NCBI GenBank assembly: GCA_002707495.1
Contig: PAMZ01000021.1
Span: 124,001-188,000 of the forward strand
Direction: 5' to 3'
Source of the DNA: Halobacteriovoraceae bacterium
GTDB lineage: Bacteria > Bdellovibrionota > Bacteriovoracia > Bacteriovoracales > Bacteriovoracaceae
DNA length: 64,000 bases
Position 1 is the first letter of the stretch. Every line of letters begins with the position of its first letter. Of the stretch, positions 9,565 through 18,552 are shown piece by piece. Both the position numbers and the translations under genes were made by a program. The notes below the pieces were generated by a model that was given only the letters and a program-made list of their open reading frames with translations, was not told the DNA's origin and did no database searches.

Positions 9565-9849
9565 ATGAGTTTAAAAGAGAAATTTGAGTCAGAGATTGAA
9601 AAATGTGATTGGGATATGCTTAAGCCTCATCATGAAAGAGGTGCAGTTTTCATAGTGGGAGAGAGTCTTGAACTGGTTACTGTGGCTATGGCTTTAGCAG
9701 AGGATAATGTTTCTCAGGTTAAAATCTGGCTTGATAACAAAGATTTTTATAAACTCGAAGAAACAAGTGAGTTTGAAAAAGAGCCATTTAGAAAGTTTGC
9801 CCATTTTCTTATCGTCCAGCCATATGTTCTCGTAAAAATTATTGATTGA
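9565..9849 (+). CDS. DUF2288-family small protein
   Basis: 94 residues, all cytoplasmic in character. The pattern W-(D/E)-L near residue 17, GAVFIVGESLELVTVAMALAED in the middle and the ending FLIVQPYVLVKI matches DUF2288, a family of about 90-100 residues found in proteobacteria and cyanobacteria with no known function. The gene sits between alkC (divergent, 28 bp) and add (convergent, 11-bp overlap), so the context does not suggest a role. No strong ribosome binding site is seen before the ATG. Confidence 0.72.
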   Translation: MSLKEKFESEIEKCDWDMLKPHHERGAVFIVGESLELVTVAMALAEDNVSQVKIWLDNKDFYKLEETSEFEKEPFRKFAHFLIVQPYVLVKIID

Positions 9850-11074
9850 GATTTTCTTCTACAATCTTATCAAAATACTGCATGTTTAATTTAGCATAGG
9901 CTCGTTTTTCAACATAACTTCCGGGAAAGAAACTCTTCTTAAAGCCGTAGGCTACTATATCCTTGAGACGTTTTAGGGGAATATCAAAATTATCTAAGGC
10001 AAGTTGATACTCTTTGGTGACAGTGGTATTAGATACAAGTCTATTATCCGTACATATAGTAGTTGCCATTCTATTATCAAGCATATTCTTAAATTTGTGT
10101 TCGGTTATTTTTGATAGCTCAGGATTAGTTTGCATATTAGAGGTTAAACAAACCTCAATGACTGTTCTTTTGTCAGCTATAAAAGAGGCGAGATTTTTAA
10201 TATAGTCCTCTTTATCTTGAATATTTGGATCTTTAATACGCTCGGGCATAAATAAGGAATAGCCATGTCCAATTCGGTCGGCATAGCACTCAGTAATTGC
10301 TTCAAAAATACTTTCAGCACCATAGGCTTCTCCAGCGTGTACTGTTTTGTGCATAAAGTTTTTATGGGCATAAGCATAGGCTTCAGAAAATTTACCTGCC
10401 GGATACCCTTCCTCTTGTCCTGCAAGATCAATCCCAACAATGGGAAGACCTTTTTCATCACGAAGTTTTACGCAGGCCCTCACCATTTCCATAGCGGCAA
10501 ATCGAATAATTTGACCTGGCCTAGAAAAGCTCATCATCTGATAGAGATTGGAATAATATGGTGAGAAGCCTTTTGGGCCAAACATTCTCATGGCACAAGA
10601 GATAATTCCATAATGAAATTCAGGCTTTCCCTTGTCTTTCACTTCAGTCCCGTTGTTATATTCTTTTTTCGCTCGTTCTAATCCCTTGTAGGCGGCAGTT
10701 AGGATGGATTCAAAATCAAGATTTTTATCTAAATCCACTAAAAGCTGAGGCGCAAATCGGACTTCTATATAATTGACACCTTCTTTTTGGTTGTCAATTG
10801 CAAGCTCATAACTGGCACGTTCAATATTTTCTAAATTTCTTAATACATTACAGGTATATTGAAAACCACGAAGATACTCGCCAAGATTATTATAAGTCGG
10901 TTTAAACACTTCTTTTTGTAAACCCTCAGGCGTATAGCTTGGTAATTCAACACCATCTTTTTTGGCCATCTCAATGAGAGTTTTAAGTCGCAAACTACCA
11001 TCCAAATGTAAATGAAGATCAGACTTTGGCATCTCTCTTATGAATTTTTCGTTATATTGAATTTTTTGAGTCAT
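9839..11074 (-). CDS. add: Adenosine deaminase
   Basis: 411 residues, longer than the usual 330-350. Zinc and catalytic motifs are all present: SDLHLHLDGSLR near residue 18 (HxH), VHAGEA (third His and catalytic Glu region), DRIGHGYSL and TICTDNRLVSNT (metal Asp). It hydrolyses adenosine or deoxyadenosine to inosine, a salvage step useful for taking up nucleosides released from other cells. The start overlaps the preceding aminotransferase gene by 4 bp (ATGA), so it is translated as the last gene of the lysine/DAP operon although it has no metabolic link to it. The extra length comes mainly from insertions in the first 200 residues. Adenine deaminase or AMP deaminase is less likely. Confidence 0.9.
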   Translation of the reverse strand: MTQKIQYNEKFIREMPKSDLHLHLDGSLRLKTLIEMAKKDGVELPSYTPEGLQKEVFKPTYNNLGEYLRGFQYTCNVLRNLENIERASYELAIDNQKEGVNYIEVRFAPQLLVDLDKNLDFESILTAAYKGLERAKKEYNNGTEVKDKGKPEFHYGIISCAMRMFGPKGFSPYYSNLYQMMSFSRPGQIIRFAAMEMVRACVKLRDEKGLPIVGIDLAGQEEGYPAGKFSEAYAYAHKNFMHKTVHAGEAYGAESIFEAITECYADRIGHGYSLFMPERIKDPNIQDKEDYIKNLASFIADKRTVIEVCLTSNMQTNPELSKITEHKFKNMLDNRMATTICTDNRLVSNTTVTKEYQLALDNFDIPLKRLKDIVAYGFKKSFFPGSYVEKRAYAKLNMQYFDKIVEENLNQ

Positions 11075-12279
11075 AAGTCGCCTTGCTCTTTAGCCTTTTT
11101 CATTCTTAGTATAAATTCATCTCGCTGTGATTTATCTCGAGCATAGCAAACACGAAAATATCCTGGTGTGTTGAGTCCTTGTTCAAGTCCCGGTGTTATA
11201 TTAACTCCGTACTTCTGCATAAGCATATTGAAAAGTTTGGGCTCATCTTCTAAGTCTTGGCATTTATAGTTTAAATCTAAAAGCATGAACATGGCAGCTT
11301 CGTCAAAAATAAAACTAAACTCGCTAAGCTCAGTTAAAAGGTGATTTCTTGCTGATGTTAAGCGTTCACTATTAGACCTTAAATAACTATTAAGAAAATT
11401 TTTATCAGAAATAAGATTTTCTAAGTGCAGTTGTGTAATACTTGCTACTGGGTAGAAATAGCTTGAAGCACTGACAGCTTGTGATACTTCTTCAAAGTCA
11501 CTATAGAAAAATCCTAGCTTAAATCCAGCAAGACAAAAGTCTTTCGCCATCCCATAGAGAAAATGGGCATTTGCTCCCGCTTTTCTCGCCCTTTGATAAA
11601 GCGATTGATGTTTCACCTTGTTGTGTTGTGAGAGAGCATAAATTTCATCACAAATAAGGTGGAGATCATATTCTTTTGAAAAGGCTATAATCTCATCTTG
11701 AAATGTTTCATCCAATATTTCACCGGTAGGGTTGTGAGGGTGTGTGAGGAGTATTCCTTTAATATTTCGATAGGCTTTGAATGCTTCTTTAAAGGGAGTG
11801 ATTTCATGTCGAAAGTTTTTTTGAGGATCTAATTGGACGGGGATAAATTCGCATTTAAATCTTTTCGTGAAATCATGTTCGAAGCCCGTATAGTATGGTG
11901 CGGGAATGAGAATTTGGTCTCCTTCATCAAAAAGACTAAAACTTAGACTTTCACAAAGAGAAGAGACTCCACTGTTAATGATTAGCTTTTCGGGGTCCAT
12001 ATGAGGAATTCCCAAGTACTCTTTGAAAAAATTGGTCATTAAATTACGTGTAGACTCTAGTCCCCTTAGGTCGCAGTATTGAATATGCTCTTCATTTGGC
12101 AAAACTGATTTAGAGAGTGCTGGAAGAAGGAGATCATTCATCATGTGATTTTCAGCGATTCCAAAATTAACAAAACCTTTAGGGTTCTCTAAAGAATAAG
12201 GATTTTCAAGACAGGCAAGGTGTCCTCTGACAATTGCTGAGGGGTTTCCCGCTAGTTGCCTGGCCCTTTGAGAAATCAA
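11071..12279 (-). CDS. PLP aminotransferase class I/II, candidate N-succinyl-DAP aminotransferase
   Basis: 402 residues of fold type I. The PLP-binding Lys is in FLYGMAKDFCLAGFKLGF (about 255); the cofactor ring Asp is in LICDEIYAL, preceded by LTHPHNPTGE. Overall it looks most like the ACC-synthase/aminotransferase subgroup. It lies in an operon holding lysC, dapB, dapA, dapD and lysA, where the only missing transamination is that of N-succinyl-2-amino-6-ketopimelate (the DapC step). That role is therefore the best inference, though sequence alone cannot give the substrate. It overlaps the upstream deacylase and the downstream add by 4 bp each. Confidence 0.75.
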   Translation of the reverse strand: MISQRARQLAGNPSAIVRGHLACLENPYSLENPKGFVNFGIAENHMMNDLLLPALSKSVLPNEEHIQYCDLRGLESTRNLMTNFFKEYLGIPHMDPEKLIINSGVSSLCESLSFSLFDEGDQILIPAPYYTGFEHDFTKRFKCEFIPVQLDPQKNFRHEITPFKEAFKAYRNIKGILLTHPHNPTGEILDETFQDEIIAFSKEYDLHLICDEIYALSQHNKVKHQSLYQRARKAGANAHFLYGMAKDFCLAGFKLGFFYSDFEEVSQAVSASSYFYPVASITQLHLENLISDKNFLNSYLRSNSERLTSARNHLLTELSEFSFIFDEAAMFMLLDLNYKCQDLEDEPKLFNMLMQKYGVNITPGLEQGLNTPGYFRVCYARDKSQRDEFILRMKKAKEQGDL

Positions 12280-13409
12280 ACTTTATGCTCCGATAGTTTA
12301 GTCATGACTTGGTAAAGCTCCATTCCTTGGTGCACAGAACTTGAAGGACATCGATTAATGATAATTCCGTCTTGTTCTGCTTTAACAGCAGACCTAGAGC
12401 TCTCTATGGGATCATTTGGATCGATATTTTTTAAATTATAAAAGCTAGCGAGTGTATCGCCTTTGTTAAATTTTTGTCCTGGTTCAAAGTGATAATCTAC
12501 CAGTCCGCCCTTAGGAGAGAAAATAGTTTTATAATTTTCTAAAAGACAGCTATGAGAATCAATTTTATCGGGCATACCCTCAAGTACACCTTTATAGCGA
12601 AGATAATTAACGATACTTTCAACGTCCTTCGCTGCTTCGTCCATACGAAAAGTTTCTTCAGAACCAAACTCCAAAGTAAAAGACTCAATATCTGGAATAA
12701 TCTCTCTTCCTTGAGCTTTTAATTTGTTCATTAAATGTACCCAAGGCATAAAGGCTGACTCATCCATTGATCCTGCGTATTCATTGGGGATAATGAGATT
12801 GTATTTGAATTTTAGATAATGTGACACTTCTGCTTCATATTCTGCGGCATAGAGGTATCGAGTCGCGGTCGGACCGGTATGGAGATCTAGAATGCCGTCG
12901 GCCTTTGATGCCAGATGCTGAAGCATAAGGTTAAGTTTGTTATTTTCTGAAAGCGCTCGTGTTTCAATAAGCTTATCAAAATAATTTCTAAAAATTTGAT
13001 CAAGCTCAGATTTGTAGACTATTTTCAGCTCATGCCAAGGCAAATGTATATTATTTTCTACGAATCCTATTAAATCAAACTTGGAGACATTAATAATATC
13101 GACAAAATTTCTATTCCAATTATGACCTGTTACGGGATTATACCTCCCATAAGTATAGGTTCCGTGTTTATTATTGGTCGCATAGGGATTGGCTAGAGGG
13201 ATAAAGGTAATGCTTCCCCTTATTTGAGTCTGGTTTATCAGATCCATCAATTGTAAAATAACGGCATTACCTTGTAACTCTGCTCCATGCACAGATGCCT
13301 GTATATGAATATGGGGACCCTCACTGCCTTTTACAGTATATGTCTTTAATTTTAAGGTCTCACCAGTGGCAAGCTCTTTTATCGGAAATTCTTCAATAGT
13401 CCAATTCAT
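12276..13409 (-). CDS. AstE/AspA-type zinc deacylase (M14-like), candidate replacement for DapE
   Basis: 377 residues. The zinc-binding HxxE is in ASVHGAELQGNA (about residue 40), the third zinc His in GILDLHTGPT, and the catalytic Glu probably in FTLEFGSEE. This is the succinylglutamate desuccinylase/aspartoacylase family of M14-like enzymes, which hydrolyse N-acyl groups from amino acids. A C-terminal beta domain follows (about 300-370). It lies between lysA and the aminotransferase in the DAP operon, exactly where a desuccinylase is needed: dapD is present and no dapE is seen in the window. I infer that it removes succinate from N-succinyl-LL-DAP. It begins immediately after the lysA stop and overlaps the aminotransferase by 4 bp. 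Confidence 0.8.
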   Translation of the reverse strand: MNWTIEEFPIKELATGETLKLKTYTVKGSEGPHIHIQASVHGAELQGNAVILQLMDLINQTQIRGSITFIPLANPYATNNKHGTYTYGRYNPVTGHNWNRNFVDIINVSKFDLIGFVENNIHLPWHELKIVYKSELDQIFRNYFDKLIETRALSENNKLNLMLQHLASKADGILDLHTGPTATRYLYAAEYEAEVSHYLKFKYNLIIPNEYAGSMDESAFMPWVHLMNKLKAQGREIIPDIESFTLEFGSEETFRMDEAAKDVESIVNYLRYKGVLEGMPDKIDSHSCLLENYKTIFSPKGGLVDYHFEPGQKFNKGDTLASFYNLKNIDPNDPIESSRSAVKAEQDGIIINRCPSSSVHQGMELYQVMTKLSEHKV

Positions 13410-14621
13410 CTAAATCATCCAGTCGTAGGAAGTCTTGGGAGGACGCGGGATCATGAGATCTCCATTATAAGAGATCACCTCTCCAGGAAGTTTGTGGCAA
13501 AGAAAATAGGGCATACTCTCAGTAAAACCGTAGGCTCCCACTTTGTGATGAACGATCCAATCTCCAATTTGGACATTTGAGGGAAGGTTAAATTCTCCCA
13601 GGTAATCCAGCGCTGTGCAAAGAGGTCCATGAATATGAAAAGTTTTTTCGGAGTTGGTCGTTTTATTTAAAGCAGAAACCGGAAAATGTTCTCCAACTAG
13701 TGCCGGTCTAGCGATATGATTTATTCCACCTTCGCAAACCAGAATATTTCTTCCTCGAACTTCTTTTATATCGATGATTTTATTTAAATAATAACCACTT
13801 TCTCCAACCGAGTAGCGACCTAGCTCCATCCAGATTTTTTTAAGTCTGTATTTCTTTTTAATTTTTGTAAGAGCTAGCTGAACCTCTTTAAAATCAATTC
13901 TCTTATCAGAGAGATCATAATGAATTCCCAGTCCTCCACCAAGATCAAGTATTTCACAATCAATATTAAGCTTATTAGAAAGTTCTAAGCAGCGCTCAGT
14001 AGTAGCTGACCATATATTCTCAAGCTTGGAGACTTCATGGATATTTCCCCATTGAAAGGCGTGAAAGCCTTTAATATTAATATTTTTAGTACGACTTTGA
14101 TCTAGCCTTATCCATTGCTCAGAATCAATTCCAAAAGGAGTGATGGCATCACCACCGAGAACACTTTTACCCTTGTCCCAACTTAGTTGAACGCGAAGAA
14201 GTGCATCGACACTTTTTCCAAGCTCTGAGCAGACTTCATCTAACCAATAAGCTTGGTTTAAACTTTCAAGAACTATGGTGCCAACACCACTTTTTACTAA
14301 ATGCTTGAGATAGTCTTTGGATTTTCCAGGTCCCGTGGCAATAATATGATTGCCTTTGATTCCTGTATTTAAAACTTGATGAAGTTCTCCTTCAGAGGCC
14401 ACATCAATTCCAAAGCCTAAATTTCTTAGAACCTTTAAGATAGCACTCATAGGGTTTGCTTTGCACGCATACCAAAGAGTGATGTCGGGTTCGAGTCCTT
14501 CTGCCATATATTGTAGATGCGCTTTCAATGCATCCAGATCATAAAAAAAGAATGGGGCATCAAAGCGTTCAATTACACTTAAAAGGCGTTGATAAGCTTC
14601 GTCTCCGAGTCTCTGTTTCAT
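13410..14621 (-). CDS. lysA: Diaminopimelate decarboxylase
   Basis: 403 residues of the fold III, alanine-racemase-type PLP decarboxylases. The PLP Lys is in LWYACKANP (Lys54). A glycine-rich phosphate-binding loop LDLGGGLGIHYD lies near 225, the EGGINHIARP segment near 300 and the catalytic GPLCTALDYLGE near 330. It makes L-lysine from meso-DAP, the last step of the pathway encoded by its operon. Ornithine or carboxynorspermidine decarboxylases share the fold, and the sequence is not a textbook LysA, but the context among lysC, dapA, dapB and dapD makes DAP the likely substrate. It starts 13 bp after dapD. Confidence 0.83.
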   Translation of the reverse strand: MKQRLGDEAYQRLLSVIERFDAPFFFYDLDALKAHLQYMAEGLEPDITLWYACKANPMSAILKVLRNLGFGIDVASEGELHQVLNTGIKGNHIIATGPGKSKDYLKHLVKSGVGTIVLESLNQAYWLDEVCSELGKSVDALLRVQLSWDKGKSVLGGDAITPFGIDSEQWIRLDQSRTKNINIKGFHAFQWGNIHEVSKLENIWSATTERCLELSNKLNIDCEILDLGGGLGIHYDLSDKRIDFKEVQLALTKIKKKYRLKKIWMELGRYSVGESGYYLNKIIDIKEVRGRNILVCEGGINHIARPALVGEHFPVSALNKTTNSEKTFHIHGPLCTALDYLGEFNLPSNVQIGDWIVHHKVGAYGFTESMPYFLCHKLPGEVISYNGDLMIPRPPKTSYDWMI

Positions 14622-14634
14622 GGATTCCTTTTAA

Positions 14635-15387
14635 TTATCTTAAAAAGTCTTCAAGTTTCAATGAATCATCTGTTTTTGAGTCTCTATACTTCACTATAAT
14701 GGCACAATTAAGACTTAAACCTTGTTCCTTGGCCCAGGGAAGTTTCGAACTTACTGGACGGCTACCGGGCACGACCACGGCATTTTCTGGAATAATGCCA
14801 TCTGTGATAAGTGTTTCATTAACAGCATCGTATATAGGAGTCCCTTTTGAAAGAATAACTCCGGGTGCTACTACGGCACCTGATAAAACTTGAATACCTT
14901 CAACAATCGAAGCACCAGCTCCAATAAAGCAATTGTCTTCAATGACAACAGGGGCAAGACCAATAGGCTCAAGCACTCCACCAATTTGAACAGCAGCAGA
15001 GAGATGAACATTTCTTCCAATTTGCGCACAAGAACCAACTAAGGCATGTGAATCGACCATTGATCCTTCATCTACAAAGGCACCAACATTGACATAAGCA
15101 GGAGGCATAATAATAACTCCAGGCTTAACACAGCTTCCTCTTCTAACTGACGATCCACCTGGAACCATTCGAACCTTATCTTGTGGGGTAAACATTCTTG
15201 CTGCAAGATTATGCTTATCAACAAAACCTTGATGGCCTGTTTCAGAAAACTCTTTTAGTTCTCCAGCTTTAAAAGCCGCAAGGATGGCTTCTTTAACTTC
15301 AGTATTGGCGACCCATTTACCATTAACTTTATTGGCTGATCTTAGTTCACCAGTTTCTAATTTGTTTAAAACATCTTCCCAGTTCAT
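14635..15387 (-). CDS. dapD: Tetrahydrodipicolinate N-succinyltransferase
   Basis: 250 residues. An N-terminal helical part (to about 85) is followed by a left-handed beta-helix made of hexapeptide repeats (PGVIIMPPAYVNVGAFVDEG, then SCAQIGRNVHLSAAVQIGGV and VVIEDNCFIGAGASIVEG). The conserved acceptor-site segments MVDSHALVGS and GGVLEPIGLAPV are those of DapD, which transfers succinate from succinyl-CoA to the amino group of tetrahydrodipicolinate. Its presence shows that the organism uses the succinylase branch. It lies 12 bp after dapA in the same operon; succinyl-CoA would come from the sucAB complex also encoded in this window. Confidence 0.92.
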   Translation of the reverse strand: MNWEDVLNKLETGELRSANKVNGKWVANTEVKEAILAAFKAGELKEFSETGHQGFVDKHNLAARMFTPQDKVRMVPGGSSVRRGSCVKPGVIIMPPAYVNVGAFVDEGSMVDSHALVGSCAQIGRNVHLSAAVQIGGVLEPIGLAPVVIEDNCFIGAGASIVEGIQVLSGAVVAPGVILSKGTPIYDAVNETLITDGIIPENAVVVPGSRPVSSKLPWAKEQGLSLNCAIIVKYRDSKTDDSLKLEDFLR

Positions 15388-15399
15388 GTTAGCTTCCTC

Positions 15400-16281
15400 T
15401 TATTTTTGAGATTTGAACCACTCTCGGACTCTCGTTGTACTATTCACAACGACACCTAAATCACGCAGATCAAGACTGCTCAATGGTGGCATCATAGTAT
15501 TGTGATTGATCCGTCCTTCGCTGGCAAGAAGCGCTTTGGCGGGAACTGGGTTGCTGGCCACAAATAAGGAATTAGCCGCACTGGTCCATAGCTCTTTTGC
15601 ATCAAAACTTCCACTCAAGCACTGCTTTACGTAAAGATTCGTCTCAGAGGGCCATGTATTCCCTGCTACAGAGACAAGTCCCACAGCACCTGCTTGGACA
15701 AACTCTGGAAGAAGTCCGTCATCTCCACAATAAACTCGTCCACCATTTGCGGCACATAAATATTCCGCCATTATTTTGGAACTGCCACTGGCCTCTTTTA
15801 TCGCCCAAAAATTTGGATGGGTATTAAGCTTTCTAACGGCTTCATAGCTGAGATCTTTTCCAGCTCTTCCTGGAACATTATAAAGCATGACAGGTCTACT
15901 CACTCCGTCCATTAGTGTTTTAAACCATTCATATTGTCCTTGATCACCAGGCTTAGCATAAATAGGAGTGACCATTAAGTAAGCATCGATATTTCTCGTC
16001 TCCAGCCATGCAGTCCAAGCTTTTTGAGCGGCAAGATTATGTCCACCAACACCCACCATAATAGGTGTTTTTGGTTTAAGCTCAATGGTGAAGTCTACGA
16101 TAGCTTTTCTTGTTTCAAGGTCTAGGTTAAGTGCTTCTCCGGTTGAGCCTAAAACAAGAAGTCCATTTCCAGCAGACTCTTGCTCACGAATAATTTTCTC
16201 TAGTGAATTATAGTCAACTTGATGACCTGGTGTTAGGGGAGTGATTAAAGCTGTCCATAGTGAATAATCATTCAATTTCAT
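15400..16281 (-). CDS. dapA: 4-Hydroxy-tetrahydrodipicolinate synthase
   Basis: 293 residues, the normal length. It has the GSTGEALNL motif near residue 45, the catalytic Tyr in VMLYNVPGRAG (about 133) and the Schiff-base Lys in FWAIKEASG (about 161). It condenses pyruvate with aspartate semialdehyde, the first committed step towards DAP and lysine. Third gene of the riboswitch-led operon, 8 bp after dapB. Other class I aldolases of the DHDPS family look similar, but the operon leaves little doubt. Confidence 0.94.
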   Translation of the reverse strand: MKLNDYSLWTALITPLTPGHQVDYNSLEKIIREQESAGNGLLVLGSTGEALNLDLETRKAIVDFTIELKPKTPIMVGVGGHNLAAQKAWTAWLETRNIDAYLMVTPIYAKPGDQGQYEWFKTLMDGVSRPVMLYNVPGRAGKDLSYEAVRKLNTHPNFWAIKEASGSSKIMAEYLCAANGGRVYCGDDGLLPEFVQAGAVGLVSVAGNTWPSETNLYVKQCLSGSFDAKELWTSAANSLFVASNPVPAKALLASEGRINHNTMMPPLSSLDLRDLGVVVNSTTRVREWFKSQK

Positions 16282-16289
16282 AAATACCT

Positions 16290-16955
16290 CTATATATTTA
16301 AATGTTTTTTGACCACATCACTAAAATGGGTCAGGCCCATTTCAATTGAGTTGTCGGTTAATATTTTATTTGCGGCCCACAAGGCGCCTTGGGCAAAAAT
16401 GCCTCGATCAAGGGCTTCATGGGTAAGTTTTATTTTTTCAACGGGTGTGATCATTTCCACATGGTGATAACCGACCACTTCTCCTGTTCGTTCAGCAGTA
16501 ATTTCTGCTTTTTGTCCTAGCCAATCCTGCCATGAAAGAGCGGTTCCTGAAGGAGCATCTTTTTTATGCACATGATGGATATCGTGAATCTTAAATTCAA
16601 TATCATCAAAGAGCTCTTGTGCTTTTCCTAGGTATTCGATCATCGATTTTGCGATATTCATACCTAGTGAAAAATTATGCGCGTTTATCCACTTTACGTT
16701 TGCGGTTTTAAGCCTTTTTTGAATATCAATTGGCCAATCAAAACCAGTAGAACCCGTCACAACAGGAAGTTTTGACTCTATTAAAAGATCAATATAATTA
16801 AGAAAAGCAGGGCCTGGTAGAAAGCTGATCACGACATCACAAGATTTTAAGGCTTCAAGTGTGGGAGGATTCTTTTCATCAAAGGCGATAGTGTCAGAGT
16901 GAAGTTCGGCGACCTTTCCTCCTGTCTTTCCTGCACCTATGAGAGCTACTTTCAT
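16290..16955 (-). CDS. dapB: 4-Hydroxy-tetrahydrodipicolinate reductase, short form
   Basis: 221 residues, against 240-275 in most DapB proteins. The N-terminus MKVALIGAGKTGGKVAE is the NAD(P)-binding GxGxxG loop, and the catalytic segment IHHVHKKDAPSGTALS lies near residue 125. The part between the first Rossmann strand and the TGFDW segment is shortened. It reduces hydroxy-tetrahydrodipicolinate with NAD(P)H. The start overlaps lysC by 4 bp (ATGA), so the two are translationally coupled. Confidence 0.92.
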   Translation of the reverse strand: MKVALIGAGKTGGKVAELHSDTIAFDEKNPPTLEALKSCDVVISFLPGPAFLNYIDLLIESKLPVVTGSTGFDWPIDIQKRLKTANVKWINAHNFSLGMNIAKSMIEYLGKAQELFDDIEFKIHDIHHVHKKDAPSGTALSWQDWLGQKAEITAERTGEVVGYHHVEMITPVEKIKLTHEALDRGIFAQGALWAANKILTDNSIEMGLTHFSDVVKKHLNI

Positions 16956-18289
16956 GAGATAAACTCCCCATGGAGTTTTTTTATCGTCTCGTCTGCCTGG
17001 TCATTTGAGACTAGTAAATTGAAATTAAATGCCGAAGCTCCAAGACATACGAGCCGTACGTTTACATCTTCAATGGCAGAAAAAATTCTTTTCCCTAGTC
17101 CTGGTTGGTGAAGCATTTCATTTCCAATAATTGAAACTAGTGAGAAACCAGCTTCTGAATTGACTTCACCAAGTTTGGAGAGCTGCTCAATAAGACGAGT
17201 GTTTTTTAAATTGATTTCATCAGTGGAGATAGCAACAGAAATCTCAGAGGTTGATACACAATCTACTGAGATTTCATTTTCAGTGAAAATATCAAAGATA
17301 CGTCCCATAAAACCAAAAGAGTTCATCATTTTAGGCGTTCTAATTGTGAGAAGGGCCTGATTCGATCTTTTTGCAATGGCGCGAATTAATGGTTTCTCAG
17401 TTACTGATTCGCGAATCCATGTTCCTCTCTCTTCAGCAGCATAACTTGAGCCAACAAAAACGGGAATTTTTTCTCGCATTGCTGGAACAAGGGTTGAGGA
17501 GTGAAGAATCTTTGCTCCATATTGTGCCATCTCGCCAGCTTCATCATAAGAAATTTCATTAATAGGTCTAGCTTGGTTTACAATTCTGGGGTCAGTGGTT
17601 GCAATACCTGCGACATCAGTCCAAATCTCTAAAACATCTGCCTTTACACCTTCAGCAAATAGGGCTGCTGAGTAGTCTGATCCACCACGACCTAATGTTG
17701 TCGTAAAGTCATCATCGTCTGATCCAATATAGCCTTGCCCTACATAAGCGATGGAGCCGTCTAATTTGAAAAAAGCCTCACATTGAGTTCTTATTTTACT
17801 AAGCTGTGGCTTAGCTTTTCCATATTGAGAATTGGTTTTTAAAATTCTTCGACTATCAAAATGTTCAACGCTTTTTTCAGGCCAGGTCATCTTTAAGGCT
17901 TCTGCATATAAAAGAGAAGAAAGTCTTTCACCAAATGAAACCATTCTATCCTTAGCTTTTTCAGAGCACTCACCCAGGAGAAAAATTCCTCTGGTGAGAG
18001 TTTCAAGGTTATTGAAAAGCTCTCTTAATCTTTCGCCTACAAGTTGATCACCTGTTAGGTTTTGAAGAATATCAAAATGTCTCTCTCTTATAGTGAAAAG
18101 CTTTTTTTCGCACTCATTCCATTTGCCACCAACTGATAACTCAACCAATTCATGTAATTGATCTGTGGTTCCATAGGTCGCTGAAACTAGTGTGATAGTA
18201 GAGTTTTGTTTTTTTGAAATCTGAGCAGATCTAAGCATGGCCTCATGATCTTTCATAGAACTGCCACCAAATTTTGATACAACAATCAT
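16952..18289 (-). CDS. lysC: Aspartate kinase with ACT domains
   Basis: 445 residues from the ATG at 18289, preferred to an upstream in-frame ATG at 18355 because GAGG lies 5 bases before it and the protein then begins MIVVSKFGGSSM, the normal start of the family. The kinase domain includes the VSKFGGSSM loop, SFGERLSSLL and TTLGRGGSDYSA; two ACT repeats fill the last 140 residues (from IRAIAKRSNQAL) and would bind lysine or threonine for feedback control. It phosphorylates aspartate, the first step for lysine, DAP, methionine and threonine. First gene of the operon, 90 nt behind a lysine riboswitch, so expression should fall when lysine is abundant. Confidence 0.94.
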   Translation of the reverse strand: MIVVSKFGGSSMKDHEAMLRSAQISKKQNSTITLVSATYGTTDQLHELVELSVGGKWNECEKKLFTIRERHFDILQNLTGDQLVGERLRELFNNLETLTRGIFLLGECSEKAKDRMVSFGERLSSLLYAEALKMTWPEKSVEHFDSRRILKTNSQYGKAKPQLSKIRTQCEAFFKLDGSIAYVGQGYIGSDDDDFTTTLGRGGSDYSAALFAEGVKADVLEIWTDVAGIATTDPRIVNQARPINEISYDEAGEMAQYGAKILHSSTLVPAMREKIPVFVGSSYAAEERGTWIRESVTEKPLIRAIAKRSNQALLTIRTPKMMNSFGFMGRIFDIFTENEISVDCVSTSEISVAISTDEINLKNTRLIEQLSKLGEVNSEAGFSLVSIIGNEMLHQPGLGKRIFSAIEDVNVRLVCLGASAFNFNLLVSNDQADETIKKLHGEFIS

Positions 18290-18378
18290 TTTTTCCTCGC
18301 TATTGGGCATAGATTTTCTGGCCAAATTATACCTTTTGGAGGAGCGATAAGACAAAGTTTTGGGAGGAAAAACAAGGT

Positions 18379-18543
18379 CCTAAAGCTCTCCATGAGGTAT
18401 TATTAGCTCATGACAGCAAGGAGGGTTCAACCTCTCTCACCAACCGCGACTTTCCCACCATCACGATTTCGGCATCCACCCCCTAGGTAAGTTTCATCGA
18501 TTTGGGATCTCCACTTACTTACTGGGCAATGCACCTCTTTAAG
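18379..18543 (-). ncRNA. Lysine riboswitch (L box) in the lysC leader
   Basis: On the minus strand the leader carries the L-box core in order: AGAGGTGC near 18540-18531, AGTA followed by a GGAGAT turn (P2), GCCGAA (18473-18468), GGTTGAACC capping a stem (18432-18422) and CTGTCAT (18416-18410). The ends pair as P1: CTTAAAG (18543-18537) with CTTTAGG (18385-18379), seven pairs with one G-U. This five-helix aptamer binds L-lysine. Downstream, TTTTTCCTC at 18372-18364 is the exact complement of GAGGAAAAA (18298-18290), the lysC ribosome binding site, which points to control of translation. The whole 342-base gap between lysC and asd is taken up by this leader and the two promoter regions. Confidence 0.93.
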
Positions 18544-18552
18544 TTCTTTCAG

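Follow-up and report, generated by a model that had tools for sequence, protein, structure and literature searches.

A candidate AstE/AspA-type zinc deacylase for the DapE step in the riboswitch-controlled lysine operon of a Halobacteriovoraceae bacterium

The lysine operon of a Halobacteriovoraceae bacterium encodes an AstE/AspA-like deacylase (here AstE) that may well hydrolyze N-succinyl-LL-diaminopimelate (N-succinyl-LL-DAP) in place of an absent DapE, a reading to which we give a probability of roughly 0.55 and in which the reaction, its substrate and its essential role are inferred. The gene was found in a 64,000 nucleotide stretch of DNA (the window). The reading is based on the active-site residues, the absence of DapE, the presence of DapD and DapF, the lack of an above-cut-off match to the plant-type DapL model TIGR03542, the linkage to lysine operons and riboswitches across phyla and a distribution complementary to that of a second enzyme. 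The predicted protein would be a cytosolic zinc-dependent AstE/AspA (M14-like) deacylase converting N-succinyl-LL-DAP to succinate and LL-DAP by the zinc-water mechanism of this family, and would replace the M20 enzyme DapE within a riboswitch-controlled lysC-dapB-dapA-dapD-lysA2-AstE operon. DapE (TIGR01246) has the proposed reaction and pathway position in common with AstE but belongs to a different superfamily with no sequence relation seen. An earlier note, made from the sequence alone, had proposed a non-orthologous replacement of DapE. This proposal is plausible and partly supported: the lack of DapE, the linkage to dapD and the distribution argue for it, while 15 relatives lacking AstE, the presence of DapE in Alteromonadales, a paralog of the second enzyme and an alternative role with the neighboring decarboxylase argue against it.

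The operon runs on the minus strand of the window in the order lysC-dapB-dapA-dapD-lysA2-AstE-aminotransferase-add (Table 1). A lysine riboswitch lies ahead of lysC and the whole unit is therefore lysine-controlled. The AstE reading frame is tightly packed, with lysA2 abutting upstream and the aminotransferase overlapping by 4 nt downstream. Model searches confirmed the dapD and aminotransferase genes described in the earlier note, the absence of any M20 protein from the operon and the position of the AstE/AspA-like gene between the lysA-like gene and the aminotransferase. The gene called lysA in that note is a LysA-related decarboxylase but not a standard LysA, as it scored below the TIGR01048 cut-off of 297.9 bits. 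The dapB product is only 221 aa long and falls under its curated cut-off. A homologue of dapA occupies the equivalent operon position in relatives. The aminotransferase matched no NCBIfam equivalog above cut-off, and its position downstream of AstE, like that of the adenosine deaminase homolog that closes the operon, is conserved only in the closest relatives.

Table 1. Lysine riboswitch and operon genes, in transcription order, with positions in the window.
Feature	Positions	Strand	Basis
Lysine riboswitch aptamer (RF00168), ahead of lysC	18375..18547	-	Rfam 76.6 bits (gathering 30)
lysC, aspartokinase of the lysine-sensitive type	16952..18355	-	NF006570 493.5 bits (cut-off 455)
dapB, dihydrodipicolinate reductase, short	16290..16955	-	TIGR00036 99.6 bits (below cut-off 122)
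dapA, dihydrodipicolinate synthase	15400..16281	-	Sequence reading and gene order
dapD, tetrahydrodipicolinate N-succinyltransferase, short subtype	14635..15387	-	NF008808 298 bits (cut-off 204)
lysA2, LysA-related PLP decarboxylase	13410..14621	-	TIGR03099 232.8 bits, TIGR01048 214.8 bits (both under cut-off)
AstE/AspA-like zinc deacylase, proposed N-succinyl-LL-DAP desuccinylase	12276..13409	-	PF24827 72.7 bits
Class I aminotransferase, possible DapC (inferred)	11071..12279	-	PF00155 164 bits
add, adenosine deaminase homolog, operon end	9839..11074	-	PF00962 218.6 bits

The AstE reading frame is intact, beginning with ATG and encoding 377 aa. PF24827 (AstE_AspA_cat) covers residues 31-272, far above its gathering cut-off of 25 bits; the only other Pfam match was a sub-threshold M14, and M20 was not among the matches. 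No NCBIfam equivalog was assigned, the best being DoeB (TIGR02994) at 42.6 bits against a cut-off of 402.7, and the AstE equivalog model gave no match at E up to 0.01. The zinc and catalytic residues H41, E44, H177 and E247 and the carboxylate-binding pair N99-R100 were invariant across 22 relatives, confirming the intact zinc residues reported earlier. The protein shares with the AstE/AspA/DoeB family the HxxE...H zinc ligands, the NR pair, the catalytic Glu and hydrolysis of N-acyl amino acid amides. However, its gene lies in lysine biosynthesis, not in the breakdown of arginine (as true AstE does in the ast operon), ectoine or N-acetylaspartate. The best PDB matches were 3FMC (265 bits) and 3LWU (254 bits), which are deposited as putative desuccinylase/aspartoacylase and which we take to be Shewanella structural-genomics proteins. 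These matched over the full length and belong to the same subfamily, and their Shewanella relatives follow lysC and a lysine riboswitch, resembling the lysine context in the window; Shewanella genomes, unlike the window genome, keep DapE. A literature search on the two solved proteins returned nothing relevant.

To assess the absence of DapE we searched the whole assembly from which the window was taken (3.36 Mb, 88.9% complete), as the earlier note had suggested. TIGR01246 gave no match at 1e-10, and the M20 matches comprised only two proteins, a dipeptidase resembling PepD and a secreted protein of the M28 type, both named by sequence reading. A normal dapE could lie in the missing 11% with AstE merely auxiliary, as in Shewanella, and the coexistence of AstE and DapE in Alteromonadales is in line with this. 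However, DapE was also not found in relatives that are 99-100% complete (e.g. G032, G055, G063 and G106), among them G032 (99% complete), whose AstE is 70% identical to the window copy, making a missed dapE very improbable. The window genome, like near-complete relatives, encodes both DapD and DapF. DapL, searched with the plant-type model TIGR03542, gave no match above cut-off in the window genome and relatives. The combination of DapF with neither DapE nor an above-cut-off TIGR03542 match was seen in the window genome, G032, G055, G106, G144, G158, G070 and G105. As the operon encodes DapD, a desuccinylation step is expected.

We then compared operon order across 192 Bdellovibrionota genomes, 111 with dapD and 29 with AstE. 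AstE was within 6 kb of dapD in all 29 carriers, families f7 and f17 included, with the linkage in G156 based on two contig-end fragments. The closest named records, among the best 80 of 321 matches, were from Halobacteriovoraceae/Bacteriovoracaceae. lysA2 accompanied AstE in 28 of the 29 carriers. Fifteen genomes of the window's own family keep the dapD subtype and operon but have no AstE, and 14 of these also have no lysA2. Six of the 15 gave weak DapE-like M20 matches and nine gave none, therefore some other enzyme can carry out the step. The riboswitch was detected at the dap operon in 19 of 21 loci with AstE versus 4 of 15 without; it is mostly absent in the relatives that have neither lysA2 nor AstE but is kept in genus g13.

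A second candidate for the DapE step was a short MpaA-like M14 enzyme whose gene lies no more than 1.2 kb from dapD in 63 listed genomes and, as seen from their loci, in G079 and G090. This arrangement was present in 65 of the 82 dapD-positive genomes lacking AstE versus 0 of 29 with AstE (Fisher p about 4e-15, relatedness ignored). As the two never overlap they look like alternative DapE replacements, a pattern consistent with DapE having been replaced twice independently. The dapD-adjacent gene (for example L112:7155-7802(-)) occurs across Bdellovibrio and related families, and most such genomes have no DapE-like M20 match. The dapD-linked proteins formed one clade (clade D), which includes a copy in G163 located 3.3 kb from dapD. 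Like AstE, the clade D enzyme is an M14-like zinc hydrolase of amides encoded beside dapD, and is likely an alternative replacement, but it is about 220 aa long, forms a separate lineage and was never beside dapD in AstE genomes.

The window genome's own short M14 (G000, contig C19; L164:5090-5776(+)) fell in a different clade (F) together with paralogs not linked to dapD. Its gene neighbors are 6-pyruvoyl-tetrahydropterin-synthase-like and acyltransferase-like genes, named by sequence reading. Clade F is present in nearly all relatives of the window genome, and AstE-less relatives perhaps use it for the desuccinylation; AstE need not be the sole enzyme for the step in the window genome. An initial candidate role for the C19 protein as the DapE of the whole phylum, suggested by co-occurrence with dapD in 107 of 111 genomes, was downgraded to a rival explanation because the tree put the window copy outside the dapD-linked clade. 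In this rival, the clade F enzyme performs the DapE step, with AstE serving the lysine regulon as an accessory deacylase of N-acyl amino acids. MpaA cleaves the gamma-D-Glu-DAP amide, which is chemically similar to succinyl-DAP, the related clade D adjoins dapD elsewhere in the phylum, and strong short M14 matches were found in 43 of 44 dapD-positive family genomes, including the 15 without AstE. However, the clade F gene is unlinked to dapD, is also present in the dapD-less G016 and G103 and clusters with a second Bdellovibrio paralog that is itself not dapD-linked (weak support, 89/48). Three genomes (G158, G070 and G105) encode AstE and DapD with neither a DapE-like M20 nor a strong short M14 match, leaving AstE as the only operon-linked DapE candidate. 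We consider a primary role for clade F rather unlikely.

To look beyond the phylum we scanned the genome collection for the AstE family and evaluated the best 80 of 321 matches. Among these, AstE was found in Alteromonadales and in single other MAGs. Shewanella has the order riboswitch-lysC-AstE, Pseudoalteromonas and some Colwelliaceae have riboswitch-dapA-dapD2-lysA2-AstE, and other Colwelliaceae have riboswitch-dapA-AstE. A genuine DapE scored above cut-off in all 16 Alteromonadales carriers tested, and AstE is therefore an addition in these organisms and not a replacement. AstE was linked to lysine genes in almost all lineages whose gene neighbors were read, in most cases behind a lysine riboswitch. 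The exceptions were an Acidobacteriota AstE (L240, G209) on a contig without recognizable lysine genes, with a lysA2 operon on another contig, and a Colwellia copy in L265 with no recognized lysine neighbor.

One MAG from a reduced gammaproteobacterium (G210, 1.5 Mb) carries a fused lysine-arginine operon, dapB-dapA-dapD-lysA2-argF'-argG-argBA-argC-argH-AstE (L314:8608-19267(+)). The acetylornithine carbamoyltransferase route is present in this operon and ArgE' is absent, and AstE closes the operon in the place expected for ArgE', an N-acetylcitrulline deacetylase of the M20 type from an unrelated protein family. The sole M20 protein of G210 has a signal-peptide-like N-terminus. The G210 AstE was nested with two copies from the window's family (G008 and G181), and this nesting together with the operon place speaks for a biosynthetic role in deacylating N-acyl amino acids. 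The possibility that G210 is a DAP-free organism, as it has no DapF and no murE in the mra cluster, was given no weight; Mpl and MurF are present, and the genome is a MAG of which about a quarter lay outside the search.

The neighboring decarboxylase offered another role for AstE. All 21 lysA2 proteins carried the motifs GPLCTxxD and ELGR, whereas CExxD and EPGR were found in nearly all standard LysA proteins of the family. In standard LysA the Glu of CExxD makes contact with the distal amino group of the substrate. The best PDB match of lysA2 was BtrK, an L-glutamyl-ACP decarboxylase. Judged from these features, lysA2 may act on something other than meso-DAP, e.g. LL-DAP or N-succinyl-LL-DAP. 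A standard LysA is encoded elsewhere in the window genome (L163:4219-5451(+), contig C7) and scored 409.5 bits against TIGR01048. Because lysA2 is a distinct CTxxD subfamily, AstE may act on N-succinyl-lysine: lysA2 would decarboxylate N-succinyl-LL-DAP to N-succinyl-L-lysine and AstE would free lysine, bypassing DapE and DapF, with wall DAP supplied through another deacylase. The tracking of AstE with lysA2 within the phylum, their joint absence from 14 of 15 relatives and the loss of most riboswitches along with both are consistent with this, as is the Pseudoalteromonas module, which exists besides standard LysA and DapE. However, Shewanella, several Colwelliaceae, G153 and the GWA2_49_15 group have AstE but no lysA2, and at G153, L219, L222 and L226 AstE directly follows dapD with lysA2 absent. 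This persistence led us to reject strict AstE-lysA2 coupling as the sole explanation and speaks against a role confined to N-succinyl-lysine. The bypass would also leave G158, G070 and G105 without an obvious enzyme for the DapE step, and we regard it as quite unlikely. A related and still unlikely suggestion is that dapD2-lysA2-AstE is a transferable riboswitch-controlled module in which an L-specific lysA2 and AstE would make lysine from N-succinyl-LL-DAP without DapE, DapF or meso-DAP. If true, this module would uncouple lysine from cell-wall DAP synthesis.

Lysine riboswitches have been described for dapA-dapD-lysA-hypothetical1-hypothetical2 of Pseudoalteromonas and for lysC-dapB-dapA-dapD-lysA of Bacteriovorax marinus (PMC5584792). 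GapMind reported bacteria that have DapD yet lack a convincing DapE, with open gaps for DapE in Pedobacter and for DapC/DapE or DapL in Echinicola (PMC7311316). By titles and abstracts, no proposal of an AstE/AspA-type protein for the DapE step was found in the open-access literature. DapE is both an antibiotic target and a recognized gap, and two unrelated candidate replacements can now be named in Bdellovibrionota, one of them with solved structures of unassigned function (3FMC and 3LWU). lysA2 is a distinct LysA subfamily that merits characterization, and the missing DapE step now has testable candidates. Together the genomic data suggest that a marine predatory-type bacterium lives without DapE and that an unrelated zinc deacylase carried in its lysine operon probably does the job, and that a second unrelated enzyme in the same genome could also perform this step.
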